Assembly: GCA_011389735.1 (NCBI GenBank)
Contig: JAABTS010000032.1
Coordinates: 1 to 41,584, forward strand
Length of the DNA stretch: 41,584 nucleotides
Reading direction: 5' to 3'
From: Desulfobacteraceae bacterium
Lineage (GTDB): Bacteria; Desulfobacterota; Desulfobacteria; Desulfobacterales; JAABTS01
Notes under the pieces: generated by a model
Seen by the model: the letters and a program-made list of their open reading frames with translations, nothing else
What the model was told of the DNA's origin: nothing
Databases searched by the model: none
Program-made: the position numbers and the translations under genes
In this document: piece after piece, positions 5,041-23,554 of the stretch
How positions within the stretch are numbered: position 1 is the stretch's first letter
Layout of the letters: every line of letters begins with the position of its first letter

Positions 5041-5103
5041 GCATAACCGATCGATATCGGCTGTGCCCATGAACCGTTTTTTCCAGCGTATCTTGTGTGA
5101 GTG

Positions 5104-5688
5104 ATGTCAAATCCAATACTAAATGATGAATTAGATGAGCTGTTGGCGATTCAGTTCATGGTGGCCTGGGCCGGGGAAGGACTATCGGAACCCCGGCGGC
5201 TGGACTGGTGGTCGACGGATTTAGTGGATGAAGCCGGCGGAGGCGATTTTTTCGCTCGGCTGCTTCCTAAAACCCATCGGTGGACGGCTTTGGAAACTGT
5301 TCGGAAAGCCGCAATTCAGGCGGATGCATTGGCGAGATCGCGCATGGCGTCTCCTGATGATGTCCGAACCCTGTTTTTCTGGGGATTCGACCTCAATGAA
5401 CGCCTCGGCGAACAATTAGCCAGGCATAAGCATGGCGGCGAGGACCCTATCGATGTTCTGCCGTTTTCGGTCGATTTATACGCGCCTTTTGACGCTCAGG
5501 CGTTTACGGAAGCAATACGAATTCCCGGGAAGGAGCAAAAATACAAGATCACGCCCGCCGGAAGGGAATTGACGGGAAAGCTTCCGGATTCTCCCGCTTT
5601 GCAGTCCAGACATCTGGCGGCGGCGCTGATTCCGTTCGGCGATCAATATCCGGCGCCGTTTTTCAGAATACCGGACCGGGAGCGATGA
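5104..5688 (+). CDS. brxE: BREX type 6 protein BrxE
   Basis: A 194-residue soluble protein with the opening LDELLAIQFMVAWAGEGLSEPRRLDWWSTDLVDEAGGGDFFARLLP. This pattern and its place as first gene before brxA identify it as BrxE, the accessory protein found in type 6 BREX. Its biochemical role is not established. The ATG at 5104 is preferred to the GTG just before it; no strong ribosome binding site precedes either. It is separated from brxA by 13 bp. Recognition is by family pattern and synteny, without a computed alignment. Confidence 0.82.
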   Translation: MSNPILNDELDELLAIQFMVAWAGEGLSEPRRLDWWSTDLVDEAGGGDFFARLLPKTHRWTALETVRKAAIQADALARSRMASPDDVRTLFFWGFDLNERLGEQLARHKHGGEDPIDVLPFSVDLYAPFDAQAFTEAIRIPGKEQKYKITPAGRELTGKLPDSPALQSRHLAAALIPFGDQYPAPFFRIPDRER

Positions 5689-5701
5689 GGTTTCAATTTT
5701 A

Positions 5702-6502
5702 ATGACGACTATAAACGATACGTCTGAATATATTGGCGAAGAAGTTCATACGGATCACACGGGTTTGCTTCGACTTGCGCTGGCTCTGGAAGACAGCCGG
5801 GCCTATCTGGACCATTTCCGCCCGGAAATACCGGCGAAAAAATTGGCCGAAACCGCTTTTGAGGAAAGATGGTTCGGCAATAAAAGCATGGCGCGAATCA
5901 AATTGATCCTCAACGATTTCCGTAAACGGTACAACGCCTATCCGCCGGCGTTCGTTGTTCTGCACCGATGGAAACCGGCCGACCCTAACATCCGCAAAAA
6001 CTTGTGCCACTGGCACCTTCAATTATCCGACCCGATCTACCGGGATTTGTCCGGCGTTTTTCTGGTTCAAAGGCGGGAACGCATTGACGCCGCTTTGAGC
6101 CGGGATATTGTCGCCAAATGGCTCCATGAACGCACCGGAAACCGCTGGGCCATGACAACGATCCGGAGAATTTCGGAAAATCTCGTGACCAGCCTGGCCG
6201 AAGCCGGATTGTGTTCTCCGAATAACAGGGACCGCAAACCAGCCTATCCCGCTGTTCCGGATGTGAGTCTCGCCTATCTGCTCTACCTGCTTCGGCATAT
6301 GAAATTCAACGGAACTCTGCTTTCAAATCCCTATCTGGCGTCTGTGGGCCTGTCGGACGAGTTCCTGGAAAACCGGCTGCGCCGTCTTCCGAGTCTGAAT
6401 TATAAACGCATGAGCGGCGTTCACGATTTCGGATGGGAATACGACAACATCGGCGACTGGGCGGCCCATACCCTTTCATTGAACATGGAGGCGCAATCAT
6501 GA
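5702..6502 (+). CDS. brxA: BREX protein BrxA (DUF1819 family)
   Basis: A 266-residue protein. The segment AKKLAETAFEERWFGNKSMARIKLILNDFRKRY and the later DLSGVFLVQRRERIDAALSRDIVAKWL resemble DUF1819/BrxA, a small helical DNA-binding component of BREX related to the NusB fold. It is second in the operon, and its stop overlaps the brxB start (ATGA at 6499-6502). A GAGG lies about 10 nt before the ATG. The protein is somewhat longer than the roughly 200 residues typical of type 1 BrxA, with extra sequence after residue 200 that is rich in aromatic residues. Confidence 0.85.
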   Translation: MTTINDTSEYIGEEVHTDHTGLLRLALALEDSRAYLDHFRPEIPAKKLAETAFEERWFGNKSMARIKLILNDFRKRYNAYPPAFVVLHRWKPADPNIRKNLCHWHLQLSDPIYRDLSGVFLVQRRERIDAALSRDIVAKWLHERTGNRWAMTTIRRISENLVTSLAEAGLCSPNNRDRKPAYPAVPDVSLAYLLYLLRHMKFNGTLLSNPYLASVGLSDEFLENRLRRLPSLNYKRMSGVHDFGWEYDNIGDWAAHTLSLNMEAQS

Positions 6503-7137
6503 CGGATTCCATCTTCGATCAAACCCCTCTTGAAACTAAAATGAACGACTTGAAAAAGGATATTCTTCAGGCGGGCGGCCCCCGGATCAGCACCATGCGT
6601 AACTACGGATTCGCTATTGTACAATACGATCCCAGGGAGGAATTCGAAATACGCGGCCATATCCAGCGTCTCTCTGCTGATCTGGAACGAAATGGATGGA
6701 ACATACTATCCATTTCCCTCAAGCAACTGTTTCTCGAACGTCTGAATAATGATGATCCCGAAGTGATCCGGAGCATTATCGCCAGAGAGCGCCGTCTTTA
6801 TAAAAAGTCCCCGGTGCGCGCCCTTGAATATATAAAGGATGAAATGCACCTTTATTTCGAAAATTCCGAGGGGATCGCCGGCGATGTGAGCCTGACCATC
6901 AATTCGTTTTTTGAATCCAATCCGGATTCAAAAGGCCGCACAATCGTATTTCTGAGCCGTATGGGCGCTTTATATCCATTTTTCAGAACTTCCTCGCTCA
7001 CAAAATATATTGACGGGAAAATTCATAAGACACCGTTGATTCTGTTTTATCCGGGAGAAAGAAAGGATCGTTCCACCCTTTCATTTATGGGCGAACTTCC
7101 GGCGGACAGGGATTATCGAACACGGATTTATTCATGA
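6499..7137 (+). CDS. brxB: BREX protein BrxB (DUF1788 family)
   Basis: A 212-residue protein with the DUF1788 features GPRISTMRNYGFAIVQYDP near the N-terminus and GRTIVFLSRMGALYPFFRTS...LILFYPG near the C-terminus. BrxB is a conserved BREX component of unresolved function, required with BrxC and PglX. The ATG at 6499 overlaps the brxA stop by 4 bp and has GGAGG about 6 nt upstream; a longer in-frame start inside brxA is therefore rejected. About 240 bp of repeats separate it from brxC, the largest non-genic gap inside the system. Confidence 0.88.
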   Translation: MTDSIFDQTPLETKMNDLKKDILQAGGPRISTMRNYGFAIVQYDPREEFEIRGHIQRLSADLERNGWNILSISLKQLFLERLNNDDPEVIRSIIARERRLYKKSPVRALEYIKDEMHLYFENSEGIAGDVSLTINSFFESNPDSKGRTIVFLSRMGALYPFFRTSSLTKYIDGKIHKTPLILFYPGERKDRSTLSFMGELPADRDYRTRIYS

Positions 7138-7166
7138 ATATTTTCCGGTGAAGGTTGTAATATGAA

Positions 7167-7242
7167 AATCCCCCCTGGCTTCCCTTTGTTAAAGGGGGGA
7201 ACATCAAAGTCCCCCTTTCGTAAAGGGGGATTTAGGGGGATT
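7167..7242. repeat. C-rich/G-rich palindromic element, family 4
   Basis: AATCCCCCCT...CCCTTTGTTAAAGGGGGG followed by CCCCCTTTCGTAAAGGGGG and TTAGGGGGATT. It contains two nested strong hairpins with AATCCCCC/GGGGGATT outer arms. Related pieces lie at 15866-15898 and, shorter, at about 11222-11252, all in gaps of the BREX operon. It may reduce read-through from brxB into brxC, but no T-run marks it as a terminator. Confidence 0.7.
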
Positions 7243-7270
7243 AATAGAAGCTCACAATTCCGCTAAAATT

Positions 7271-7369
7271 CGAAAAGGGGGCTTGGTTCTAACTTCGGCC
7301 ATTTTCATTTATCCCGATCCCGATTTGAACATATCGATTGGCCGAAAATAGAACCAAGCCCCGAAAAGG
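7271..7369. mobile_element. Short inverted-repeat element, family 2 copy 1, with perfect 8-bp duplication before brxC
   Basis: The element 7279-7361 (83 bp) starts GGGCTTGGTTCTAACTTCGG and ends with the near-complement GAACCAAGCCC. It is flanked by the identical 8-mers CGAAAAGG (7271-7278 and 7362-7369). The right-hand duplicate contains the AAGG/AGGA that serves as the brxC ribosome binding site, so the insertion left brxC translation intact. A second copy of the same ends is at 22839-23009. Confidence 0.8.
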
Positions 7370-7376
7370 AGTGTTT

Positions 7377-10300
7377 ATGCTCATACAAGAAATTTTCGCA
7401 GAGGACGTTACCCGCGATATCGCTCCTGTCGTCTATTTTCACGAAAACGACCCGCAAAAGGTCATGGAAGAAGTTTCGGAATACATCATCACCGGCGGAT
7501 ATCCGGAATCCGACCCCCGGCATAAAAAAATGCCGTCCGGAATCCATGAACAGTTTGTTCGCCTTTTGACCGGCCTGACCGCGGAGTTGAATAAAAAACA
7601 CGGTGTGGAACTGCCCGCCTCCTGGATTTCAGGGTTTTACGGGTCCGGCAAATCGAGCTTTGCAAAGCTGTTCGGTCTGGCGCTGGACGGCCTGACGCTC
7701 CCGGATCAACGTCCGCTGTCCGAAGCGCTCCTGGAACGGGACGATTCTCCAAAATCCGCAGAATTCCGCGACGCCTGGAAATCCCTGAGCGGCCGCATCG
7801 ACCCACTGGCCGTGGTGTTCGACATCGGGACGGTCGCCCGTGAAAACGAAAACGTCCACTCGGCGGTCAAACGCAACATTCAGGCGCGGCTCGGGTACTG
7901 CACGGTCAGTCATCATGTGGCGGACTACGAATTGAAACTGGAGCTGGACGGGAAATGGGATGAATTTATGTCCCTGGCCGAAAAGGCTATCGGCAGATCC
8001 TGGGATGAGGCCAAATCCGAACGTCTGGCGGCGGACTATTTTTCCAAATTGATTCATACCCTGTCTCCGGATTTGTATATCGATCCCATGAGCTGGATCG
8101 ACAGCCGGTCCGGAGACCGCAGCGGCATCGGATCGTCCGTTGAAGAAACGACTCAGGCGATTTCCGACATGCTCAATATCCGCGCGTCGGGAAAAACGCT
8201 GTTCGTTATCGTCGATGAAGTCAGCCAGTACATCCATCAGAACGAATACCGCATGTTGAAATTACAGTCTTTTGTTTCGGATCTCGGTAAAAAGCTCAAG
8301 GGCCGGGTCTGGCTGGTGGCAACAGGACAGCAGAAACTCGAAGACGAAGAAGAAAAAACCGTTCTGGGAAAACTGAAAGACCGTTTTCCTCCACGGCTTC
8401 GGGTGCATCTGGCGAGCACCAACATTCGGGACGTGGTTCATAAACGGCTCCTGAAAAAATCCCCAACAGCGGAACCCGAACTGCGAAAACTGTTTCAGGC
8501 CCATCGAAGCGATCTCAAACTATACGCCTATTCATGCAAGGAAATCACCGAGGAAGATTTTACGGAGGTGTATCCGCTGCTGCCCGGCCATGTGGATCTG
8601 CTCATGGATATCACATCCGGCCTGACGCTTCGATCCAGCCGGGTCAAGGGCGATGATTACGCTATCCGGGGATTGCTCCAGCTTCTCGGAGAATTGTTCC
8701 GAGAACTGAAATTCGGAGAAAAGGCGCTGGGCGAATTGATCGCCCTGGATCAGGTCTACGATATTCAGCACACGGCTCTGGATGCGGATATCCAGAACAC
8801 CCTGGCGCAGATTTTCGCTCATGAGGACGTGTCCGGCGATGACGACGCTGTCCGGGCGGCGAAAGCGGTTTCCCTCCTGGAACTGGTTCAGGAAAAAATC
8901 CCCACCACCACCGAACTGGTCGCCCAATGCCTCTATGCCCGAATCGGCATGGGCAACCGGGAATCCGCGATCCGGAATGCGCTGGACAAACTATGCGGGC
9001 TCGGACTCCTCTCCTATTCAGAAAAACACGGTTATAAAATCCAGAGCGCCGCTGGTCAGGAATGGCAGCGGGAACGGGACGCCATCGGCGTCACTCGTGA
9101 AGAAAGCATGGCGATCATCTGCGAAAAATTGAAAGAGCTTGTGGGCGGTCTGGAACGTCCAACCTACAAGAAAAAAGGATTTCTCTGGGCCGCGTTTTTC
9201 AGCGACGCCGGCCTGAAACAGGATGAACGGCTCCATGTTCCGACTGATCCCGCCGTGGTGACGGTCGATTTCCGCTTTTTAAAAGGGGATGATCGAAGCC
9301 ATGAAAAATGGATTCAGGCCAGCGATTCGGCCCTGCTCCGGGACCGCCTGATCTGGGTGTGCGGCAAGCTCGGAACCCTGGACGCCGATATCAAACAACT
9401 GGCGAAATCAAGAGCCGTTTTAAACCGGTATAACTCCCATGTGCAATCCCTGAGCCGTAACAAACAGCGGCTTTACATGGAAGAGCAAACCCGGTGCGAA
9501 GGTCTGGAAAAAACCGCTAAAGAAGCTGTCGCCCGGGCGTTCATGGACGGCGAAATCTATTTCCGGGGACGGACGTTAAGCCGGGAGGATCACGGCAAGG
9601 CGTTCGCCGCACGGCTGACCGGTTCGGCCAAAGCCATTCTTTCGGAACTGTATGGTTTATACGTCGATATCGCGGTTTCGCCCGGAGAGTTGAACCAGTT
9701 GCTGGAACCCCAGCTTTCCGGCCCGTCTCAGAAATTCATGGCGGCCGGACTGGGAATTCTCGATCTCGACGCCGGCAAATACGCGCCGTCATGCAACGGT
9801 GAAACCCCGTCCCGCATCCTGCAATATATCCGGGAAAACACCGGCGCATCCGGGACCGTGCTGTTGAATGAGTTTGGAAAACCGCCTTACGGGTATCCGC
9901 CGGATGTGGTGAAAGCATGCCTGGCGGGGCTGCTGAGGGCCGGGAAAATACGAATCCGGCCGGACGCCGGTCCAGAAATCACATCCGTCCGCGATCCCGG
10001 CGTCAAGGATATGTTCCAGAAAGACCGGGATTTGAAACGCGCGGATATTCTGCCGCCGGTCGATCAGGGAATCAACCCGAGAGATCGAATCGCCATCTGC
10101 AATTTTTTCAAAACCTATCTCGATGTCGATCCGGACCGGGAAAACGACGCCATCGCCGATTCCGTGTTTCAGCAATTCCCGACCCAGATGACCCGTGTTC
10201 AGGAACTCGAAAAAAAGTTCAACAGCCTTCCGGAAAAACCTGATTTGCCACAGGCGCTGACAAAGCTCAAAAAGGCCCTCGAAGACTGCAAGCGCAGCCG

Positions 10301-10994
10301 CCATGTCGAACCTACGGTACTCGCGGTGAAAAAAAATATCGATACCTTGCGCGACGGCGTGCAGCAACTCAATCTGATTCTGACGGAATTGACCGAAGAC
10401 AACATTAACGCCATTGTCCGAGCCATGACGGTTCTGAATCATCAGGCGGCTCAGTTGATGGAAATCAATGCTTTGGAAAGCGCTGAAGAGTCGGTTCAAA
10501 AGGTCGAAGCGCATTTGAAACTGGAACGCCCCTGGCGCGATATTAAAGATTTGAATCCCCTGCTGAAAATCATCGAAGACCGGTATCAGGAAGTTCGGCT
10601 GTCGCTCATCGAACGGCAGGAACAAAAGGCTCATGAAATCCGGGAACGGATCAAACAACGCAAGGGATTCGAAAAGCTCAACGCCGATCAAAGCCATACC
10701 GTGTTACGGCCTATTACCGAAGCGCTTTACAATACCGATCCAAAGGCCGTTAAGCCCGTATTGCAGCAGTTAAGAGATTCGGTGGTCGCCCGGCTGAAGG
10801 ACGCGGAAGAGGAAGCCGACGCCCTGCTTGATGATTTCCTCTCGAAAATCGATAAAAAACAGGTCGTCCCGGTAAAACATCAACTCGGCGGCCGGGAAAT
10901 CAGTTCGCCGGAAGAACTGGATCAACTGTTAAAAGAATTGCGGGAAAGACTGCTGGCCCAGTTGAAGGATGAAAAGAGAATACGGTTGATATAG
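7377..10994 (+). CDS. brxC: BREX P-loop ATPase BrxC
   Basis: A 1205-residue ATPase of the BrxC/PglY family. Walker A is GFYGSGKSS at residues 86-94, and Walker B with the catalytic acids is FVIVDEVSQYI at about 277-287. The C-terminal third (about residues 930-1190) is rich in charged heptad-like helix, including FEKLNADQSHTVLRPITEAL. The large AAA+-type core is thought to act with PglZ and PglX in recognising or blocking unmethylated phage DNA. The ATG at 7377 (AAGGA 6 nt upstream) is chosen; an earlier in-frame TTG lies inside the inserted element and would add 13 residues encoded by that element. Length is typical of the family. Confidence 0.93.
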   Translation: MLIQEIFAEDVTRDIAPVVYFHENDPQKVMEEVSEYIITGGYPESDPRHKKMPSGIHEQFVRLLTGLTAELNKKHGVELPASWISGFYGSGKSSFAKLFGLALDGLTLPDQRPLSEALLERDDSPKSAEFRDAWKSLSGRIDPLAVVFDIGTVARENENVHSAVKRNIQARLGYCTVSHHVADYELKLELDGKWDEFMSLAEKAIGRSWDEAKSERLAADYFSKLIHTLSPDLYIDPMSWIDSRSGDRSGIGSSVEETTQAISDMLNIRASGKTLFVIVDEVSQYIHQNEYRMLKLQSFVSDLGKKLKGRVWLVATGQQKLEDEEEKTVLGKLKDRFPPRLRVHLASTNIRDVVHKRLLKKSPTAEPELRKLFQAHRSDLKLYAYSCKEITEEDFTEVYPLLPGHVDLLMDITSGLTLRSSRVKGDDYAIRGLLQLLGELFRELKFGEKALGELIALDQVYDIQHTALDADIQNTLAQIFAHEDVSGDDDAVRAAKAVSLLELVQEKIPTTTELVAQCLYARIGMGNRESAIRNALDKLCGLGLLSYSEKHGYKIQSAAGQEWQRERDAIGVTREESMAIICEKLKELVGGLERPTYKKKGFLWAAFFSDAGLKQDERLHVPTDPAVVTVDFRFLKGDDRSHEKWIQASDSALLRDRLIWVCGKLGTLDADIKQLAKSRAVLNRYNSHVQSLSRNKQRLYMEEQTRCEGLEKTAKEAVARAFMDGEIYFRGRTLSREDHGKAFAARLTGSAKAILSELYGLYVDIAVSPGELNQLLEPQLSGPSQKFMAAGLGILDLDAGKYAPSCNGETPSRILQYIRENTGASGTVLLNEFGKPPYGYPPDVVKACLAGLLRAGKIRIRPDAGPEITSVRDPGVKDMFQKDRDLKRADILPPVDQGINPRDRIAICNFFKTYLDVDPDRENDAIADSVFQQFPTQMTRVQELEKKFNSLPEKPDLPQALTKLKKALEDCKRSRHVEPTVLAVKKNIDTLRDGVQQLNLILTELTEDNINAIVRAMTVLNHQAAQLMEINALESAEESVQKVEAHLKLERPWRDIKDLNPLLKIIEDRYQEVRLSLIERQEQKAHEIRERIKQRKGFEKLNADQSHTVLRPITEALYNTDPKAVKPVLQQLRDSVVARLKDAEEEADALLDDFLSKIDKKQVVPVKHQLGGREISSPEELDQLLKELRERLLAQLKDEKRIRLI

Positions 10995-11060
10995 GGCGAG
11001 TTGTTCTGATATAATTTCTGACTGTTATTATCATGGAATCCATTCAAAAGGAGGAAACCG

Positions 11061-11267
11061 ATGGCCGCCGTTACTATCAAGGATATTCCCGACGCGCTTT
11101 ATGAAAAATTGAGTGCGGAAGAAATAATTGAGCGCGCGCGAAAAGTAAGGCCGAGTTTAAGACCGGATATGCCGGGGCATGATGAAATTATGAATGCTAT
11201 TGAAGAGGGGCGATCGCTTCAAAGTCCCTTTTTCGCAGAGGGGGATTTTAGGATGAAAAAAAAATGA
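11061..11267 (+). pseudogene. Decayed FitA-like ribbon-helix-helix antitoxin
   Basis: The first 17 residues, MAAVTIKDIPDALYEKL, are the classic start of FitA/RHH antitoxins paired with PIN toxins. The next part (SAEEIIERARKVRPSLRPDMPGHDEI...AIEEGR) matches the C-terminal toxin-wrapping region, so the central helix segment seems to be deleted in frame. The end (SLQSPFFAEGDFRMKKK) is encoded by a fragment of the C-rich/G-rich repeat family. A good GGAGG precedes the ATG, but no PIN toxin follows. The product is unlikely to bind DNA. It sits between brxC and the intact toxin-antitoxin pair. Confidence 0.65.
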
Positions 11268-11303
11268 GAAGATTTCAACCGTCACTAATAAAAAGGAAAA
11301 AAC

Positions 11304-11534
11304 ATGTCCGATCTACTAAAAAAAATAGAAACCGATATGCTAAAGCTTTCTCCCCAGGAACGTGCGTTTTTAGCTGATCGCTTGTTGAGCACGCTTCACG
11401 GAGAGGAAATGACGGATATTGACGCTGCATGGATTGAAGAAGCGGAACGCCGATATAAAGAGTATAAGGAAGGCAAAAGGCAGGGCATTGACGCCAAAAC
11501 GGTATTTGATGAAGCAGACCGGATTTTAAAATGA
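11304..11534 (+). CDS. Antitoxin of the putative addiction module component family
   Basis: A 76-residue acidic protein, MSDLLKKIETDMLKLSPQER..., with the family pattern LSPQERAFLADRLLSTL followed by DAAWIEEAERRYKEYKEGK and a C-terminal FDEADRILK. This matches the short antitoxin family (TIGR02574 type) found upstream of RelE/ParE toxins. It overlaps the downstream toxin by 4 bp (ATGA at 11531-11534). AAAGG lies before the start. The pair lies in the same direction as the BREX genes, and its codon and base use is more AT-rich than brxC, suggesting separate acquisition. Confidence 0.85.
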   Translation: MSDLLKKIETDMLKLSPQERAFLADRLLSTLHGEEMTDIDAAWIEEAERRYKEYKEGKRQGIDAKTVFDEADRILK

Positions 11535-11836
11535 ATGAGATTATTTTTGATCCGGACGCCAGATCTGAATTTCTGGAAGCTATACAGTATTATGAAAATT
11601 GCCAAAAAGATTTAGGACGCCGTTTTCGAAACGCGGTTGAAGATTCCATACGAAGAATATCTGAATCGCCTCTCATGTATCGTGTATTGCATTCTCCTTT
11701 CAGGCGATTTCTTATCAATAAATTCCCGTATGCGATCATTTATACTATCGAGCCTGAAAGCATTCGAATTATAGCTGTCGCCCATACAAAGCGAAAACCT
11801 TATTTCTGGAAATACAGGATTCAAGAAGAGAGCTGA
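11531..11836 (+). CDS. RelE/ParE-family toxin
   Basis: A 101-residue basic protein with the RelE/ParE fold pattern: IIFDPDARSEFLEAIQYYE at the start, GRRFRNAVEDSIRRI in the second helix, FRRFLINKFPYAIIYTIE in the central strands, and IRIIAVAHTKRKPYFW at the end. Members either cleave mRNA on the ribosome (RelE) or poison gyrase (ParE); sequence alone does not decide. It is translationally coupled to the antitoxin before it and lies only 5 bp before pglX, so pglX expression probably depends in part on this transcript. Confidence 0.88.
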   Translation: MNEIIFDPDARSEFLEAIQYYENCQKDLGRRFRNAVEDSIRRISESPLMYRVLHSPFRRFLINKFPYAIIYTIEPESIRIIAVAHTKRKPYFWKYRIQEES

Positions 11837-11841
11837 TTTCA

Positions 11842-14800
11842 ATGACCCCGGAAGCCAAAAACAAACTATGCAACACAATCTACGCGCTGCGTGAACGACT
11901 GCTGACCGATTTCCAGAACGCCGCAGACAGCGCATACCGGTTATCCATACCCGCCAAATCCGCCGGACTATCCGAAGAAAACCGGATCAAACGGGAACGG
12001 CTCGATTCATGGCTGGACGAGCAGGCCCGAAGCGAAACCAAAGGCAAAAAGGAAAACTTCAAGGCGGCCAGGGAACGCCATTACCGAACGGCCATCAAAC
12101 TGGCGGCGGCCACGTTTCTAAACCGGATCATCGTTATCCGGCACATGGAAGCCGTGGGCCTGATCAAACCGGCGGTGGTTTCCGGCGGCTGGAAAAGTCC
12201 GGGTTACAGGGAATTCCGGGATTTCGCTCCGGCCCTGCTGAAAGATGACACCGAAGGCTTTTCCACCCTGCTGCGGCTGATCTATGATGAACTGGCTCTC
12301 GATCTGCCGGGGCTTTTCGGCGATGTGGGCGTGAGCAGCCTGTTTCCGGTTCCGGCGTCCACGCTGCGAGCCGTGGTCGAAGCGTTTGAACAGCCTGAAC
12401 TGGAAAGCGTCTGGGCGGACGACATGACCCTGGGATGGGTGTATCAGTTCTGGAATGATCCGGAACGAAAGGCTCTGGATGAAAAAGTGCGCAACCGGGG
12501 CAAGATCGAACATCATGAAATCGCCGCGAAAACCCAGTTGTTTACGGACCGGTACATCGTCGAATGGCTGCTCCAGAACAGCCTCAACAATTTCTGGCTG
12601 GCGATCTGCGCCAAAAACGGCTGGACCCCGGACGCCCGCAAGAACGGAACTCTGGACGCCCTCGCGGAAAGACGGCAAAACTGGCGCGAACGCCGCGAAT
12701 CCGGCGAAATTCCGCCCGAAGCCATGACGCCCATTGAAACAGACGAAGAGGACAGATGGAAATACTGGGTGGAAACCGAATTGACCGGCGCCTTTATTCA
12801 GGCCGCGCCCGATTCCATCCGCCTGCTCAAAATGATCGATCCCGCCGTGGGATCGGGCCATTTCCTGATTATCGCGTTTATGCTGCTCGTGGCGTTCTAC
12901 CGGGAAGAAGCCCGGCATCGGGGCGAAGACTGGACCGACCGGGAAATTGCGGAAAGCATTATCGAAAACAACCTTCACGGCGTGGATATCGATCCGCGGG
13001 CCGTTCAGATCGCCGCCGCCGCTCTGTGGCTCAAGGCGAAATCGTTTTGCAGGGAGGCGTCGCCGAAAATCGTCAACCTGGTGGCCTCCAACCTCGGCCT
13101 GGCGTCGCTGCCGGACGATGACCCGGCCATCCGGGAATTAAAGCGGGAAGTCGAAACCGCCGCCGGCATTCCCGAACCGCTGACGGATAAAATTATCCAC
13201 GCCCTCAAAGGCGCCGACTATCTCGGATCGCTGCTCAAGGTGGACGACACCATCGATGACGCGATTCGCGAACATGAACGGTCCGGGGGCATCGCCCCTT
13301 CAGGCCCGGTGTTGCAGGTTCAATTTGATATGTTTGAGCCTGTCCCGGACGAAAACACGCGACCCACATTCGAACAGGCCAGAGGTTCGATCCTGGAAAA
13401 ACTGGACGCCTTTCTTGAAAAACGCACCGGCGGTCATGATCTGGGGCTCCGGCTTCGGGGGAAACAACTGGCCGCCGGAGTTCGGTTTGTTCGGCTGGTT
13501 AAGGAGGGATGGTATCATTTGGTTTTGGCTAATCCGCCGTATCATTCAACAAGCAAAATGGCTGACGCAACCCAATTTCAAAAAATGTATGCAAACGGCA
13601 ACCAGGATCTTTTCGCCGGTTTTATGATACGTTGCCTTCAATTGGCTCAAAAGGAAGGAATCACCGCCACCGTTACGCTCAGCAATTGGCTATATTTGGG
13701 AATTTATGAAAAACTGAGAAGTTATATAATGGACAACGCCTTCATTAATATAATAGCCGATCTTGGGAAAGCTGCTTTTAGCTCAGGCTCCATGCTGATA
13801 AACGCCTCCATGAATGTTTTTGAAAATACGACTGTACAAAAATCAAAGTCTGTTGCAGTCAGACCTTTTACACCTGAAGATGTTATTGTTGATCCCAAAC
13901 AAATACCCAGAAATGAAGCTGTTCTATGCAGTGGATCTGAAATATTTGCGTTTGATTCCAAAAAATTAAAAAAAAGTATTTCTGGACAGCCTCTTATCTA
14001 TTGGTGGGATGATACCTTCTTAAACCTTTATGCTGAAACAAAAAAAATAGAAGAAGTGGCTGATATAAGACAAGGCATGGCAAGCTCTAATGATAAAAGA
14101 TATTTGCGATCCCCATGGGAAGTAAATGGCAGAGATATCCATATTTGTGATCTTTCAAAACACAAATCCAATATCAAAGAAAAATGGGTCCCTTTCGTTA
14201 AGGGAGCAGCGGGTAAGATTTGGTTTGAGCCATTGACCGATGTAATTGAGTGGCAAAATAACGGACTAGAAGTTAAATCATTTGCTGAAAAACTATATAA
14301 AAGCTACACTAGAACTATTAAAAATGAATCGTATTATTTTTTACCAGCATTAGCTTTTCCCTCGATTGGAAACTATTTTTCAGCCCGCAAATATAGATAT
14401 AGAAGTGTGTTCGGTAATGCTGGCTTATCTGTTTTCCCTAAAAACCTTTCAGTAGCTACTTGCGTTTTGAATAGCAAAATATCTAAAAATATTGTTCAAG
14501 CATTAAATCCAACTGTTAATTTTCTTGTTGGGGATGTAAATCGGCTTCCTCTTTTTGAAATTAAGTCATCGGATAAAATATTTTTCAACCTTGAACAAGC
14601 CTTCACCCAACACGAATCCACAAGAGAAACCTCAATAGAATTCAAAAAACCAGGCCCATCAGCCTGGAACTATGCTCAGGAATGGGCGCAAAAAGCAGTG
14701 GACCGGCCGGAAGGCGAGCCATTGCCGGAATATAACCCGGTGTATGAAGACCCGCCGCCCGTGAATTATATTTCCTTCGCCGTGGGCGTCGCACTGGGAC

Positions 14801-15846
14801 GGTTCGGCGCGAATGGAGAGGGAATATTGAACGAAGCGCCGGAATCCGCGCTGCCGGACGGCATCCTGTATCTTTCCGCCCATACGGAAAACGACGGGTT
14901 GAATCATCCGGCGTGCCGGATCATCAAGGACGCATGGGAAGCATACGGCGGCGCGGTGTCCGCTAAAACCGGCCTGAAAAAATGGCTGATGCAATCCTTT
15001 TTCAAGGATGTTCACCTGAACATGTATGAAAAACGCCCCATCTATTTTCCCCTGTCTTCAAAGCGGAAAAATTTCGTGGCCCTGGTGAGCATTCACCGGT
15101 GGACGGACACCAGCCTGCAAACCCTGCTGGCGGATTATCTCATGAAGGAATTGAATCAGCTCGACGGCGAACTCGCGGATTTGATGGAATCCCGCAATCA
15201 TGGCGACCGGACTGCCCAGGCATACGCCGAAGGCCGTTATGTCGCCGCCAAAATTTACTTCGAGGAACTCAAGGAGTTTTGCGAACTGGTGCGCCGGTGC
15301 GCCGAACAGGGGCCGCCGCCCGCCAGTGAAAAGGATACGCCCAGAGAACGGGACGCCCGGTTTAAAATGGATCTGGATGACGGCGTCATGATCAACAGCG
15401 CCGCGCTCTGGCCGCTTCTGGAACCGCAATGGAAACAGCCGAAAAAATGGTGGTCGGAGCTTTGCAACGCAAAAGGCCGAAAGGATTATGACTGGGCGCA
15501 TCTGGCGGCCCGCTATTTTCCCGAACGGGTTGACGCCAAATGCAAGGAAGACCCGTCTCTGGCCGTGGCTCATGGATGCTTCTGGAAATATCATCCGGAA
15601 AAAGCGTATCAATGGGAACTTCGGCTTCAGGATGAAATCTCCCCGGATTTCACCATTGATGAGGCGGATTCGGATGGGCTTCGAACCGCCTTTGAAGGGG
15701 AGAATCCGGAAAAAGTAAAGGAGCTTGTCAAAGCGGAAACGAAAAGAAGGGAACGGAAACGGCAAAAAGCGGAGGAATCCAAATCCGATGAAGATAACAC
15801 CGAAGAGGCCTGGTCATCGGAGGAATATTTGGATGATAGTGATTGA
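11842..15846 (+). CDS. pglX: BREX adenine-specific DNA methyltransferase PglX
   Basis: A 1334-residue N6-adenine methyltransferase. The SAM-binding motif is DPAVGSGHF at residues 333-341, and the catalytic motif IV is NPPY at 564-567. PglX marks host DNA at a non-palindromic site and so distinguishes self from phage. The region from about 13505 to 14690 (residues about 555-950), covering the expected target-recognition part, is strikingly AT-rich with AAA/ATA/TTT codons, whereas both flanks use GC-rich codons. The frame is intact throughout. The C-terminal portion is charged, ending DNTEEAWSSEEYLDDSD. It starts 5 bp after the toxin gene. Confidence 0.95.
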   Translation: MTPEAKNKLCNTIYALRERLLTDFQNAADSAYRLSIPAKSAGLSEENRIKRERLDSWLDEQARSETKGKKENFKAARERHYRTAIKLAAATFLNRIIVIRHMEAVGLIKPAVVSGGWKSPGYREFRDFAPALLKDDTEGFSTLLRLIYDELALDLPGLFGDVGVSSLFPVPASTLRAVVEAFEQPELESVWADDMTLGWVYQFWNDPERKALDEKVRNRGKIEHHEIAAKTQLFTDRYIVEWLLQNSLNNFWLAICAKNGWTPDARKNGTLDALAERRQNWRERRESGEIPPEAMTPIETDEEDRWKYWVETELTGAFIQAAPDSIRLLKMIDPAVGSGHFLIIAFMLLVAFYREEARHRGEDWTDREIAESIIENNLHGVDIDPRAVQIAAAALWLKAKSFCREASPKIVNLVASNLGLASLPDDDPAIRELKREVETAAGIPEPLTDKIIHALKGADYLGSLLKVDDTIDDAIREHERSGGIAPSGPVLQVQFDMFEPVPDENTRPTFEQARGSILEKLDAFLEKRTGGHDLGLRLRGKQLAAGVRFVRLVKEGWYHLVLANPPYHSTSKMADATQFQKMYANGNQDLFAGFMIRCLQLAQKEGITATVTLSNWLYLGIYEKLRSYIMDNAFINIIADLGKAAFSSGSMLINASMNVFENTTVQKSKSVAVRPFTPEDVIVDPKQIPRNEAVLCSGSEIFAFDSKKLKKSISGQPLIYWWDDTFLNLYAETKKIEEVADIRQGMASSNDKRYLRSPWEVNGRDIHICDLSKHKSNIKEKWVPFVKGAAGKIWFEPLTDVIEWQNNGLEVKSFAEKLYKSYTRTIKNESYYFLPALAFPSIGNYFSARKYRYRSVFGNAGLSVFPKNLSVATCVLNSKISKNIVQALNPTVNFLVGDVNRLPLFEIKSSDKIFFNLEQAFTQHESTRETSIEFKKPGPSAWNYAQEWAQKAVDRPEGEPLPEYNPVYEDPPPVNYISFAVGVALGRFGANGEGILNEAPESALPDGILYLSAHTENDGLNHPACRIIKDAWEAYGGAVSAKTGLKKWLMQSFFKDVHLNMYEKRPIYFPLSSKRKNFVALVSIHRWTDTSLQTLLADYLMKELNQLDGELADLMESRNHGDRTAQAYAEGRYVAAKIYFEELKEFCELVRRCAEQGPPPASEKDTPRERDARFKMDLDDGVMINSAALWPLLEPQWKQPKKWWSELCNAKGRKDYDWAHLAARYFPERVDAKCKEDPSLAVAHGCFWKYHPEKAYQWELRLQDEISPDFTIDEADSDGLRTAFEGENPEKVKELVKAETKRRERKRQKAEESKSDEDNTEEAWSSEEYLDDSD

Positions 15847-15865
15847 GGAGGGTGTAGCATGAAAA

Positions 15866-15898
15866 TCCCCCCTGTCCCCCCTTTGTTAAAGGGGGGAA
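15866..15898. repeat. C-rich/G-rich hairpin, family 4
   Basis: Contains CCCCCCTTTGTTAAAGGGGGG, a strong stem with a 3-nt loop, 20 bp after pglX. Same sequence type as 7167-7242. It may attenuate transcription between pglX and pglZ. Confidence 0.6.
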
Positions 15899-15944
15899 CA
15901 CATGGTCCCATTGATATTAATAATGAAGGCGTATAGGTGACAAA

Positions 15945-16130
15945 TTGGAAAAGAAAAACATCACATTCGGCGTCATGCCATACGAAAAATTCAAGGAGCA
16001 CACCATAAAAATCGCAAAAGGAGAGTACAAACCTTCTAAATATGAGCCTAAAATCTGGTTTGAATCTTTTGAAGCGATGAGCCGGCTCCTGAATCGTGAA
16101 AGAAAATCGACTGATGAGTATCCAAAATGA
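15945..16130 (+). CDS. Truncated MarR-like regulator fragment (HVO_A0114-like N-terminus)
   Basis: A 61-residue ORF with a TTG start preceded by AGGTG. The sequence ITFGVMPYEKFKEHTIKIAKGEYKP and PKIWFESFEAMSRLL matches, from memory, the N-terminal segment of the HVO_A0114-type family of putative DNA-binding proteins. In that family this segment precedes a winged helix-turn-helix of about 60 residues. Here the protein stops right after LLNRERKS, so the DNA-binding half is missing. Its end overlaps the next small ORF. It is either a remnant or a stand-alone short form. Confidence 0.5.
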   Translation: MEKKNITFGVMPYEKFKEHTIKIAKGEYKPSKYEPKIWFESFEAMSRLLNRERKSTDEYPK

Positions 16131-16341
16131 AAGACGGGAATTAATACGGCTGGTTCATGAGTTATCTGATAACCAGACAAAACTGGTTAAGGCGTTTATT
16201 CAGAAACTATTGAACGAAAAACCGGAAGATAGTTTAACCGATGAGCAGAAAAGCCTTCTGGATTTGCTAAACCATACAATCAGCACCGACAGGGGCGATT
16301 TTGCGGAAAAACATGATAAGTATATCCGTCCCAACAAGTAA
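16114..16341 (+). CDS. Small hypothetical protein, antitoxin-like
   Basis: A 75-residue protein, MSIQNERRELIRLVHELSDN..., with a predicted helix pair and an acidic linker (EKPEDSLTDEQKSLLDLL). The tail RGDFAEKHDKYI resembles the C-terminal toxin-contacting tails of antitoxins paired with PIN toxins. No toxin follows; the next gene is pglZ, 10 bp downstream. It overlaps the preceding short ORF by 17 bp. The family is not firmly recognised, so antitoxin is an inference from the tail and size. Its location inside the BREX operon, away from any partner, is unexplained. Confidence 0.5.
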   Translation: MSIQNERRELIRLVHELSDNQTKLVKAFIQKLLNEKPEDSLTDEQKSLLDLLNHTISTDRGDFAEKHDKYIRPNK

Positions 16342-16351
16342 TGATACGCCT

Positions 16352-19213
16352 ATGAAAAAACAACCCCAAGGCCCAATCACATCGGCCCTCGAAGAAGAAA
16401 TCAAACAGAAACTGCGGAAACGCGGGGTCGTAATCTGGCTGGATAAGCACAATGTATATTCGGATTATGTGGATTCCCTGATCGAACGGTATCAGCAAAA
16501 GGATTTTCTCTTTCCCGCCGTCGCATTCCGGGGCAGTTTTCTGGAGATGATGTTCGCCCTTGAGCCGTATGGAAACGGCGTTGATATGGAACAAATTCTG
16601 ATTCACATGCCGGGGCATACGGAAGACACCGTTCGAAACACGCCGCTACTTGAATTTTACGCGGCTGGCTCCAAATACAAACGGTCGCTGGAGACTCTGG
16701 TGCGGGAAACAGCCAGCGGAATGGTGGAGCCGGATAAAATAGACCGGTTTATCGCCGATGAAATGACCGGGCCGGATAGCGCCGATGCATGGCTGGAACA
16801 GGAAAGCGCCCGGACCCGTGAATCCCTTTCCGGATATCTGGACGGTCTGGCCGGCGAGTGGCTTATGGACGGTTTGTTCGGCGAGGATCAAAAGCTGAAA
16901 AATCAATTTCCCGATAAAGAAGCCATCAAGGTTTTGACGGCGCATCTATACCGGAAAACCGGTATGGATAAGGCGTTTATCCTTTTTTTTATAGGAAACG
17001 AAAAGCCCGCATTTTCCAATATCAGCGAATGTTTCGCCGCCTGGCTAATGTGCGTCGAATACGTCCATGATTTGACGACGGCGCCCCATACCGGCGCTTT
17101 AAAACCTCTGACATCCCTGTCCAAACAACTCAAGAAAACCTGCCTGAAGCTGATTGCCGATTTCCGGTCTCGGCTCCCCGAAACTTACGCCGCCTATGCC
17201 ATGATCGCCGAAGTCCGGCTTCAGGATGAACTGGAATCCATAGCGCCCGAACATCTGGGACGGATCGACACATTCAAACGTGAAGAAGAGCGGGTGCTGG
17301 AAGCGGCGGTGCGATCCATGAACGCCGGAGAATGGCGTAAAGCGCTTGATTGGGCGGAGTTCCGAAGCGGCGCGGGATCATTCTGGACGGACAGGGACAA
17401 AATGCACCGGATGGCCTGGGAAATTATCGAATCCGCCGCTAAACTGGGAACGCTGATCCGGGCGTCCGGCCGCCCGCTGTCTCAAATGGACAATCTCGAA
17501 GAAGCGCTGAACTGGTACGCCGCCGAAGGATATCAAATCGACAAGGCGCACCGCTGGTTTGAACAGCGGCGGCACAAACAGTTGGACCCTCAAATGCCGC
17601 ATTTTTCCGAACTGCTGGAATCCTTCGACAAATTGCGGGAACTATACCGGAAATGGGCGGATGACCTTGCGATGGATTTTTCGGCCATCTGCGAAAAAGA
17701 CGGATTCATCCCGGAACCGCGTTTTCAGCAGCGCGAAATTTACGATCAGGTGGTGCATCCGCTGGCCGGCGGGAATAAAAAGACGGCGTATTTTCTGATA
17801 GACGCCTTCCGGTTTGAAATGGCGGCTGAACTGGCTGAAGCGATGACGGCTGAAAGCGTACAGGTGTCGCTCAACGCCCGGTATTGTGAACTTCCGGGAG
17901 TTACCTCCGTGGGAATGAACGTTCTGGCGCCCGTTGTCAACACCGGAAAGCTGAGGCTGGCGGAAGGCGTTGGATTTAATGGATTCAAAACAGGCGAATA
18001 CACGGTTCGAAAGCCCGATGATCGCGTCCGGGCGATGGCCGGGAGGAGCATCGGCGATTCAGGCGCCGGCAAGAAAAAGGCCCGGGGCGTCATGCTTCGC
18101 GATATATGCGACCGAAACCGGCAGAGCTTGCAGAAAAGTTTCGCCGGCGTGGATTTAATCGTGGTTCACAGCCGGGAAATCGATGACGCCGGCGAATCCG
18201 ACATGGGGCTTTCGAGTTTCGAGGCGGCGCTCCGGGAAATTCGTTCGGCCTGGAGCCATCTCAAGGGGATCGGGGTCGAAGAATTCGTGTTCACCGGCGA
18301 TCACGGTTTCATGCTCAAGGACCGAACCGTCAGGGAAATTACGTATGGAACCCGGCGAGACCCGGACAGGCGGTTTGTTCTGTCCGAGGAACCGAGGCTC
18401 GAAGACGGAATGACGCGCGTATCGCTGAGCGCCCTTGGATACGAAGGCAGGGACGGATATTTGCTGTTTCGCAAGGACACCGCCGTGTTCAAAACCGGAA
18501 AAACGGCGGAGACATTTGTTCACGGCGGGAACAGCCTTCAGGAACGGATTATCCCGGTGCTGACGGTTTCCATGACGGACGGTCCGGCCCGGGAAAAAAC
18601 CAGATACCGGATCGAGGCGTCGGCCATGCCGGAAATTATGGGATTGAGCCGGATTCAGGCGTCTATTATAAGGGAAACTCAATCTCAGGTTGAAATCGGC
18701 GGGGCGCGGCATATCACGTTTGCGCTCCGGGTTCCGGACAGACCCGATATTCAGGTGACCATTAAAAGCGCGAACGGCGCGGCGGTTGAAAATCAGGTGT
18801 GCCGAATTCGGGAGGGCGGCGGCCCGGCCGAGGTGTTGTTCGATTTGAAAGGGGCCAGGGATGAACGGGTTCGCCTGGAAATTTTTCATCCGGACGCCGC
18901 CTTTAACGTAAAATCCGTGATTTGTGGCGGCTATTTCAACGTATCGGGATCGGGCGCGGGCGGCCGGGAAGATACGGATACGCCCCCGGAATCTGAGGAC
19001 TGGCGGGACAGCTTTGACAATCCGGATATCCGGAAAGTGTTTGAGCATATATTTAATTACGGTTCGATCACCGAAGCGGAACTGACGAATATTCTGAAAA
19101 CGCCCAGAAACGTCCGCCGCTTTTCGCTGTCCTTCGATGAATATGTCAAAAAACTCCCGTTCTCCGTCCGGATTGAAACTCCCGCCGGCGGTAAACGGTA
19201 TGTGAAGGATTGA
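16352..19213 (+). CDS. pglZ: BREX alkaline-phosphatase-superfamily protein PglZ
   Basis: A 953-residue protein of the PglZ family. The N-terminal part opens LEEEIKQKLRKRGVVIWLDKH. The phosphatase-like core contains YFLIDAFRFEM with Asp484 as the expected metal ligand, DLIVVHSREIDDAG, and FTGDHGFML with Asp650-His651. PglZ-family proteins bind divalent metal and act with the BREX complex; nuclease activity has been reported for some members. The C-terminal 60 residues look like a small winged-helix segment (ILKTPRNVRRFSLSFDEYV). The ATG at 16352 is chosen by family alignment; earlier in-frame ATGs exist at 16313 and 16301, and no start has a good ribosome site. Confidence 0.92.
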   Translation: MKKQPQGPITSALEEEIKQKLRKRGVVIWLDKHNVYSDYVDSLIERYQQKDFLFPAVAFRGSFLEMMFALEPYGNGVDMEQILIHMPGHTEDTVRNTPLLEFYAAGSKYKRSLETLVRETASGMVEPDKIDRFIADEMTGPDSADAWLEQESARTRESLSGYLDGLAGEWLMDGLFGEDQKLKNQFPDKEAIKVLTAHLYRKTGMDKAFILFFIGNEKPAFSNISECFAAWLMCVEYVHDLTTAPHTGALKPLTSLSKQLKKTCLKLIADFRSRLPETYAAYAMIAEVRLQDELESIAPEHLGRIDTFKREEERVLEAAVRSMNAGEWRKALDWAEFRSGAGSFWTDRDKMHRMAWEIIESAAKLGTLIRASGRPLSQMDNLEEALNWYAAEGYQIDKAHRWFEQRRHKQLDPQMPHFSELLESFDKLRELYRKWADDLAMDFSAICEKDGFIPEPRFQQREIYDQVVHPLAGGNKKTAYFLIDAFRFEMAAELAEAMTAESVQVSLNARYCELPGVTSVGMNVLAPVVNTGKLRLAEGVGFNGFKTGEYTVRKPDDRVRAMAGRSIGDSGAGKKKARGVMLRDICDRNRQSLQKSFAGVDLIVVHSREIDDAGESDMGLSSFEAALREIRSAWSHLKGIGVEEFVFTGDHGFMLKDRTVREITYGTRRDPDRRFVLSEEPRLEDGMTRVSLSALGYEGRDGYLLFRKDTAVFKTGKTAETFVHGGNSLQERIIPVLTVSMTDGPAREKTRYRIEASAMPEIMGLSRIQASIIRETQSQVEIGGARHITFALRVPDRPDIQVTIKSANGAAVENQVCRIREGGGPAEVLFDLKGARDERVRLEIFHPDAAFNVKSVICGGYFNVSGSGAGGREDTDTPPESEDWRDSFDNPDIRKVFEHIFNYGSITEAELTNILKTPRNVRRFSLSFDEYVKKLPFSVRIETPAGGKRYVKD

Positions 19214-19246
19214 CGATATTTTAAATCTAAAATTCAGGAATAACAA

Positions 19247-20566
19247 ATGGGAATCAACAAAAGAGACATTGAACATATATTTGAAAGGCTGCGGTCCGGA
19301 GTGGTGCCGGAAAGAGGCATTGAAGCCTTTGCAGTGGGAATAGAAGCCCGAAGAACGGAAATCAACCGTCAGTTGAAGCTGATCGAGGACGGCGAAGGCG
19401 CATACAAATTTTTCCGGGGCGGATATGGATGCGGAAAAACCTTCATGTCCCGGCTGGCGATCCTGGACGCTCAGGCCAGAGGGTTCGCCACCAGTTTCGT
19501 AGTGGTTTCGGACAACGATCTCCATTTCCATAAATTTGACGATGTATACCGGAAAGTGGTTCAGGAAATGGGAACCCTGTCCTGTCCCAGAGGCGCGCTG
19601 GGAGATATTATCGACCGGTGGATCGCCCGGATTGAAGAGGGCCTGATCGACGCGGGGGCCGACGAAGACAGCCCGGACTTTGACGACCAGGTTCGAAAGC
19701 GCATGGAGGAAAATCTTGCGTCGCTCACGCGGGGCGATGCGCCGGAGGACATGGCCCGGGTGTTGCGTACTGTTTTTACATTCAAACAGCAGGGCAAGAT
19801 TCCCGAAGCCGCGTCGCTTCTGTCATGGCTGTCCGGGAGTGAAAATGTGGCGGCGAGCGCCAAAAAGGCCGCTGAAATCAAGGGAGAGATATCCAGCAAG
19901 GACGCCATGAACTATCTCATGGGGATTCTCGAAATCGTCAAAGCCGCAGGATACAAAGGACTGGTCATCGTTATCGACGAATCCGAAACCATTTTGCGGA
20001 TGCGCCGGGATGTCCGTGGAAGATCCCTGAACGGCGTCCGCCAGATTTGTGACGCCGCCAACCAGTTCAAAGGGCTGCTCTGGATTTTTACGGGAACCCC
20101 GGAATTTTTTGACGCCAAACGCGGCGTGGCCGGACTTCAGCCGCTTCATCAACGGATTGAATTCACAAAGCACGGGGGATTCGCAAGCCTGCGACAGCCT
20201 CAACTGGAACTTAAACCATTCAATAAAGAGCGGTTGAAAGAAGTGACCTTAAAACTCCGGGAAATATATCCCGCGGGGGATTATGACCGGTTTATCGAAA
20301 AGATTTCCCCGGAATATATCGACCGGGTGATCGATGAAGCGGCGAAAGGGCTTAAAGGCGACGTTGGAGTTGTTCCCCGGCAGTTTCTGAAGCATATGGT
20401 CGGCGTCATGGATCTGGTGGATGAACAGGAAGACTTCGATCCCATGTCCGCCGCGGGCTTTAAACCAGAAGAACTCAATGAAGACGAACGCCGGGTGATC
20501 GAAGGAAAAGACGCCTTTGACCGTGAACCTGAAGATGATCAGGGGTATGAGACTGTGGAGTTTTGA
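19247..20566 (+). CDS. brxD: BREX ATP-binding protein BrxD
   Basis: A 439-residue P-loop ATPase. Walker A is GGYGCGKT at residues 58-65, and Walker B is GLVIVIDESETILRMR at about 240-255. The start GINKRDIEHIFERLRSGVVPERGIEAFAVG is typical of BrxD, the ATPase found in type 2 and type 6 BREX and absent from type 1. AGGA lies about 8 nt before the ATG. Its stop overlaps the brxHI start by 1 bp (TGATG), so the two are coupled and probably act together. Confidence 0.92.
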   Translation: MGINKRDIEHIFERLRSGVVPERGIEAFAVGIEARRTEINRQLKLIEDGEGAYKFFRGGYGCGKTFMSRLAILDAQARGFATSFVVVSDNDLHFHKFDDVYRKVVQEMGTLSCPRGALGDIIDRWIARIEEGLIDAGADEDSPDFDDQVRKRMEENLASLTRGDAPEDMARVLRTVFTFKQQGKIPEAASLLSWLSGSENVAASAKKAAEIKGEISSKDAMNYLMGILEIVKAAGYKGLVIVIDESETILRMRRDVRGRSLNGVRQICDAANQFKGLLWIFTGTPEFFDAKRGVAGLQPLHQRIEFTKHGGFASLRQPQLELKPFNKERLKEVTLKLREIYPAGDYDRFIEKISPEYIDRVIDEAAKGLKGDVGVVPRQFLKHMVGVMDLVDEQEDFDPMSAAGFKPEELNEDERRVIEGKDAFDREPEDDQGYETVEF

Positions 20567-22688: not shown

Positions 22689-22760
22689 ATGAATGAACGG
22701 AAAGTGTTGCGGATTATTGAGAAGGCTGAGGAGGAAGGGGCTGAAACCCAATACCCGTGA
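22689..22760 (+). pseudogene. 23-codon gene remnant cut by an element
   Basis: ATG starts MNERKVLRIIEKAEEEGAE, which resembles the first residues of bacterial leucine-rich-repeat proteins (pattern LL.IIE.A...GA). It then stops as soon as the 19-bp terminal repeat of the next element begins at 22750. No continuation is seen after 23516. Assignment to the leucine-rich-repeat class is weak. Confidence 0.3.
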
Positions 22761-22838
22761 ATGAATACAATTCATGTTTTTGGACGAAATTTAAATGGCG
22801 ATAACAGGCTGTTTAAACAGTCAAGGATGCCTGTTATA

Positions 22839-23009
22839 GGGCTTGGTTCTAATTTCGGCCATAATTTTTCGGGTTGGAGCGCCAAAGCCGGAGACCGCGC
22901 TTCGTAAGTCGCGGGTTACAAACCCGCTCAGAGCAAGATACCCGCTCAGAGGGGGTTTGCAACCCCCGGCTTACCCTGGCGCGCTCCGGCCGATCTTAGA
23001 ACCAAGCCC
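22839..23009. mobile_element. Short inverted-repeat element, family 2 copy 2
   Basis: Starts GGGCTTGGTTCTAATTTCGG and ends TTAGAACCAAGCCC, the same ends as 7279-7361. The interior holds a different GC-rich palindrome (GGAGCGCCAAAGCCGGAG ... CTTACCCTGGCGCGCTCC) with ACCCGCTCAGAG repeated inside. No matching flanking duplication is visible. Confidence 0.65.
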
Positions 23010-23234: not shown

Positions 23235-23398
23235 CATGAATGGACATCCTTCATTTCTTGTTTACATTTTCATCAAAATCAAAATCAAAATCGGGATCGG
23301 GATCGGGATCGGGATCGTAATAATTCGATACCGATACCGATACGGGGATTTGGGAAGTGTAAACTATTTATCAGCATTTATGAAAGACGCCCATGAAT
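23235..23398. mobile_element. Short inverted-repeat element, family 1 copy 2, with 7-bp duplication
   Basis: The element 23242-23391 starts GGACATCCTTCATTTCTTG and ends ATGAAAGACGCC, flanked by CATGAAT on both sides (23235-23241 and 23392-23398). The interior has TCAAAA repeats, four GGGATC-type hexamers, the loop TAATAATT and CGATACCGATACC, matching copy 1 but with one or two extra hexamers in the left arm. It is inserted inside the larger nested array. Confidence 0.75.
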
Positions 23399-23554
23399 GC
23401 ATATAATTCATGTTTTTGAACGAAATTAAAAATGGCGTTGACAGCCCTTTTAAACAGGCAAGGACGCCTGTTCTACAGGGTTAAAATCGGCTGAATGGTA
23501 TTCATTCACGGGTATTGCAACTTGTATAGGGAGATTTTCCGATTTTAAAAGTTT

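Follow-up and report, generated by a model that had tools for sequence, protein, structure and literature searches.

Transposons of the ISL3 family make 8-bp target duplications and have ends that start with GG. Bacterial MITEs are short, non-coding sequences with terminal inverted repeats and target duplications that occupy A/T-rich intergenic sites and give stable hairpin transcripts, and they are usually described as IS derivatives (PMC10969869). A MITE of Porphyromonas gingivalis contains a minisatellite (PMC4596501).

We analyzed a stretch of 41,584 nucleotides from a Desulfobacteraceae genome (the window). A complete BREX operon (brxE, brxA, brxB, brxC, pglX, pglZ, brxD, and brxHI), identified with PADLOC, spans positions 5101-22680, and its gene order is presumably that of BREX type 6. 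The window contains two MITE copies, one inside the operon and the other just downstream of it. Here we describe the copy at brxC, the family to which it belongs, and a candidate transposase for that family.

A MITE at the brxC ribosome-binding site

The element at the brxC site is a MITE. The first-pass annotation of this window had placed an element at the ribosome-binding site of brxC, with an 8-bp duplication that preserved the site. This description holds: the 83-bp element is bracketed by perfect direct repeats (8/8 identical), and both AAGGAG and brxC are intact (Table 1). AAAATT and the left copy of CGAAAAGG precede the element (GGGCTTGGTTCTAACTTCGGCCA...TGGCCGAAAATAGAACCAAGCCC), which is followed by the right copy of CGAAAAGG and then AGTGTTT ATG; AGTGTTTATG directly follows the right-hand CGAAAAGG. 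The annotation also stated that the right duplicate supplies the AAGGA used by brxC. The duplicate does provide AAGG, but the next AG of AAGGAG belongs to the unduplicated flank. The Shine-Dalgarno sequence lies 5 nt from the ATG at 7377.

The element is short and lacks a transposase gene, and its inverted repeats, target duplication, and autonomous-element ends are those expected of a MITE. We detected no protein-coding capacity or ORF of its own in 7279-7361. Its 22-bp inverted arms match at 20/22 positions, and the AC/TT asymmetry between them is inherited because other copies have the same asymmetry.

Table 1. Positions of the MITE copies and neighboring features in the window
Feature	Position	Strand	Basis or remark
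brxB, upstream of insertion	6433..7137	+	Pfam BrxB; PADLOC
Left target-site duplication CGAAAAGG	7271..7278	+	sequence; 8-bp duplications in 43/91 copies
MITE, 83 bp, short member of GGGATC-tract subfamily	7279..7361	+	
Left terminal inverted repeat GGGCTTGGTTCTAACTTCGGCC	7279..7300	+	
MITE interior, hexamer-tract remnant (CCGATC CCGATT) between conserved subfamily flanks	7301..7339	+	
Right terminal inverted repeat GGGCTTGGTTCTATTTTCGGCC	7340..7361	-	
Right target-site duplication CGAAAAGG	7362..7369	+	
brxC Shine-Dalgarno AAGGAG	7366..7371	+	first four bases from duplication
brxC, 1205 aa, intact, downstream of insertion	7377..10994	+	PADLOC BrxC, E=0
Second MITE copy, 171 bp, GGAGCGCC subfamily, without target-site duplication	22839..23009	+	

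The second MITE in the window is flanked by a repeated block (ATTCATG..GGCG..ACAGGC..AAACAG) at 22757-22837 and 23396-23480. This block abuts the left end of the MITE, perhaps accounting for the absence of a duplication. At 87-190 and 23259-23365, a further repeat is present twice; it contains GGGATC hexamer tracts but has different ends (GTTTACA..TTTCATCAAAATC / GTGTAAACTATTTATC), which places the tract in two or more element contexts that are not related.

A repeat family of nearly 200 members

The genome-wide search for the same ends that the first-pass annotation had suggested was productive. With at most one mismatch allowed, the end GGGCTTGGTTCTA has 187 matches per strand in the 6.5-Mb genome, compared with one match per strand for the reversed pattern. 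From these roughly 187 copies we collected 91 that were complete and distinct, with lengths of 73-279 bp. Terminal inverted repeats are common to the family copies. Exact flanking repeats measured 8 bp in 43 copies, 9 bp in 12, and 7 bp in 1 (56/91 in total), and as a chance control, mispaired or shuffled flanks gave repeats of at least 7 bp in about 0.1% of cases. The target sites are A/T-rich in the middle. One locus (L007) holds an element nested within another, with the target-site duplication ATTGAATC; the uninterrupted sequence GAAATTGAATCCTTCGAT, which holds ATTGAATC once, is found in 10 other contexts and completes an exact empty/filled-site pair within the genome. The 22-bp ends, the duplications, the copy number, and this nested pair are direct observations, and they uphold the earlier claim that the element is mobile. 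That claim was to be refuted by copies lacking 8-bp flanking repeats. Such copies do exist, since 35/91, including the second copy in the window, have no exact duplication, and they stand beside the 56 that do. Decay, nesting, and deletion fit the copies without one.

By interior, the copies sort into two large groups, of 50 and about 33 members, plus some small ones. Several other copies match the right half of the brxC MITE (51-53 bp) with 100% identity, which is consistent with recent spread. This MITE family accounts for nearly 200 repeats in one genome.

It is hardly credible that these repeats are REP/REPIN-like palindromes or structured RNAs instead of transposons. They are short, palindromic, intergenic, and very abundant, as such a class would be, but they make 8-9 bp target duplications, provide an empty/filled-site pair, and keep their ends conserved while their interiors differ. 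The brxC MITE also had no match in Rfam. REPINs are not known to carry target duplications, and we rejected REPIN/REP membership on the presence of these duplications.

A DUF6399 element with the MITE ends

A candidate for the mobilizing enzyme came from a Desulfobulbaceae genome. A 1,934-bp element at L085 (1-1934) is bounded by GGGGTTGGTTCTATCTTCGGCC / GGGCTTGGTTCTAACTTCGGCC, and its only large ORF, of 558 aa, matches Pfam DUF6399 (PF19936, E = 1e-39). The left flank coincides with the contig start, so the target-site duplication of this element is unreadable. The same MAG has two further contigs that begin in the 3' end of the element, along with a MITE that has an 8-bp target-site duplication. 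DUF6399 ORFs bounded by inverted repeats and an 8-bp duplication were found at three loci. Two of them, L090 (AAATTTCG) and L103 (ATCATAAT), have related ends. The third is a divergent element on a viral contig (L199, 2757-4446) with ends GGCTACCCACTTAAAGCGGGACA and the duplication TTCATTTT. Other DUF6399 loci were mostly truncated, decayed, or at contig ends. L199 belongs to a second subgroup of DUF6399 elements, whose ends are GGCTACC...CGGGACA, and two similar-looking fragments are present in the window genome (L088 and L089).

DUF6399 is most likely a transposase because its homologues share an invariant D-D-E triad (D159, D213, and E484 in seven aligned proteins). A helix-turn-helix near the N-terminus is likely from an alignment read by eye. 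Structure prediction from two sequences gave a mean pLDDT of 50, too weak to display a DDE fold. The protein had no match in NCBIfam, PDB sequences, or phage, annotated plasmid records label it only as "DUF6399 domain-containing protein," and the literature searched contained nothing relevant on this domain or on the end sequence. The family may already be catalogued in ISfinder.

We favor, with considerable confidence, a model in which DUF6399 moved the MITE in trans, through an 8-bp staggered insertion across the brxC ribosome-binding site and gap repair that kept brxC translatable. A DDE-type DUF6399 transposase would recognize GGGCTTGGTTCTAA ends in trans, excise or copy the element, and insert it at cuts staggered by 8 bp, after which gap repair would produce the target duplication. 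At brxC, we infer that the staggered cut spanned the ribosome-binding site. Repair would have regenerated AAGGAG beside the start codon, and brxC would remain translatable for that reason. When the target duplication falls on a ribosome-binding site, a defence operon can thus tolerate an insertion within it.

It is quite unlikely that another transposase moves the MITE and that DUF6399 merely has similar ends or keeps genomic company with them. Among 291 genomes of the order, the ends were present in 7/13 with DUF6399 and in 16/278 without a strong match (Fisher p = 9.5e-6). This co-occurrence argues for DUF6399, although some of the genomes without a strong match have several copies of the ends (G037 and G088). 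The exact parent is also missing from the window assembly. In that genome, DUF6399 is represented by three fragments and a single full-length gene; the full-length element (L086) has divergent ends (TTGATCATCGTTTCGGCC), from which we conclude that the exact autonomous parent is absent, and in the closest fragment, L087 at 64% identity, the outer end is missing. Multicopy elements, however, are often lost from fragmented assemblies. Two further points speak against a different enzyme: the DUF6399 ORF is the only large one that L085 has within these ends, and two DUF6399 elements combine related ends with 8-bp duplications.

The same ends occur in other Desulfobacterota. At least 23 stretches titled Desulfobacterota or Deltaproteobacteria in a collection of 85,000 species genomes carry the end, and the matches listed include Electrothrix, Desulfocicer, Desulfosarcina, and Desulfococcaceae. 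Many two-ended copies outside the window genome have 8-bp duplications (Electrothrix, Desulfococcaceae HSG9, and other Desulfobacterota). The end pattern was absent from viral contigs. End types follow the element of the host, with CATAA-type ends in G251, G022, and G091 and TCTAA-type ends in the window genome. We found no homology between the interiors of different species, and MITE interiors compared with five DUF6399 elements gave only embedded end-like or short chance matches.

The brxC insertion itself is ordinary MITE biology, and the useful part of this analysis is the DUF6399 link. It gives a domain annotated only as DUF6399 a likely transposase function, with a defined end sequence and an 8-bp duplication, and explains the ends shared by cable bacteria and other sulfate reducers. 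A broader reading, to which we give an even chance, is that DUF6399 represents a DDE transposase family not yet described and that ends-only parasites throughout Desulfobacterota exploit its 22-bp ends. These parasites would exchange their interiors freely (host repeats and hexamer tracts), and their family would be defined by its ends only.

Predicted effect of the insertion on brxC

The gap between brxB and brxC measures 239 bp in the window. It is about 20-30 bp in the two nearest insert-free relatives with a readable junction (66-67% brxC identity). This short native gap supports an insertion, though it cannot be aligned base for base with the window. The first-pass annotation had called for an empty brxC site in a related strain; no orthologous one was found, and the nearest insert-free relatives are those at 66-67% brxC identity.

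The annotation further suggested that the stem-loop of the element affects brxC expression. As RNA, the MITE is predicted to form a long hairpin with a folding energy of -42 kcal/mol, more stable than chance would give (z = -5.1). The base of this hairpin, at 7362, lies 3 nt upstream of the Shine-Dalgarno sequence. Opening the ribosome-binding site is predicted to cost 4.6-5.5 kcal/mol when the element is present and 5.2-9.1 kcal/mol when it is absent, varying with the stretch folded. Since the cost with the element is comparable or lower, the folding predicts no inhibition. We considered intrinsic-terminator action on brxC and rejected it; the terminator-like sites detected lie on the other strand, and the brxC strand has no terminator T-tract. 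The suggestion therefore found no support, and the effect of the hairpin on brxC is most likely small in these folding models.

Co-option of the hairpin as a brxC regulator (as a standby site, through RNA stability, or by control of brxB-brxC polarity) seems unlikely. The stability of the hairpin and its position so close to the Shine-Dalgarno sequence would suit this role, as would the unrelated palindromic inserts that two relatives (G120 and G083) have at this position, immediately before the brxC ribosome-binding site (L111 and L110). Against it are the opening energies, the lack of a terminator tail on the brxC strand, and the gaps of G253 and G022, which have no hairpin insert. Moreover, about one third of the family copies have a possible ORF start no more than 120 bp away, which makes a position near a gene start unremarkable for this MITE.

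Several other features lie near this junction. A weak promoter-like site is located at 7241-7269, just upstream of the MITE, and we can only speculate that transcripts from it start near the hairpin. A palindromic CCCCC..GGGGG repeat lies between brxB and the MITE (7168-7243), and no second copy was seen in about 200 kb of this genome. More distant loci (L116 and L117) also have palindromic inserts upstream of brxC.

Comparison with known systems

We compared the DUF6399 protein to the transposases of known families. The elements have 8-bp target duplications and ends beginning with GG in common with ISL3. The motif order of the protein (DE...D...D-x-FH...EGxN) is similar to that of ISL3, but the second D and the E are farther apart (271 residues in L085, 153 in L236). 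A Pfam scan of the protein returned no ISL3 match. Profile comparison of ISL3 transposases with DUF6399 (hhalign) aligned the expected motifs with a probability of only 1.8%. ISL3 membership is not supported, as neither comparison gave a significant match to the ISL3 transposase domain. The ISNCY / ISDol1 group of ISfinder, which is similar in length and host group, serves as a lead only.

The repeats themselves share every feature listed above for bacterial MITEs (PMC10969869). Unlike the usual MITEs, their interiors have no homology to the five candidate parents tested and differ between species. The GGGATC subfamily resembles the P. gingivalis MITE in having a tandem tract inside the element (PMC4596501). 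The two differ in host phylum and in the tract, which is a hexamer here.
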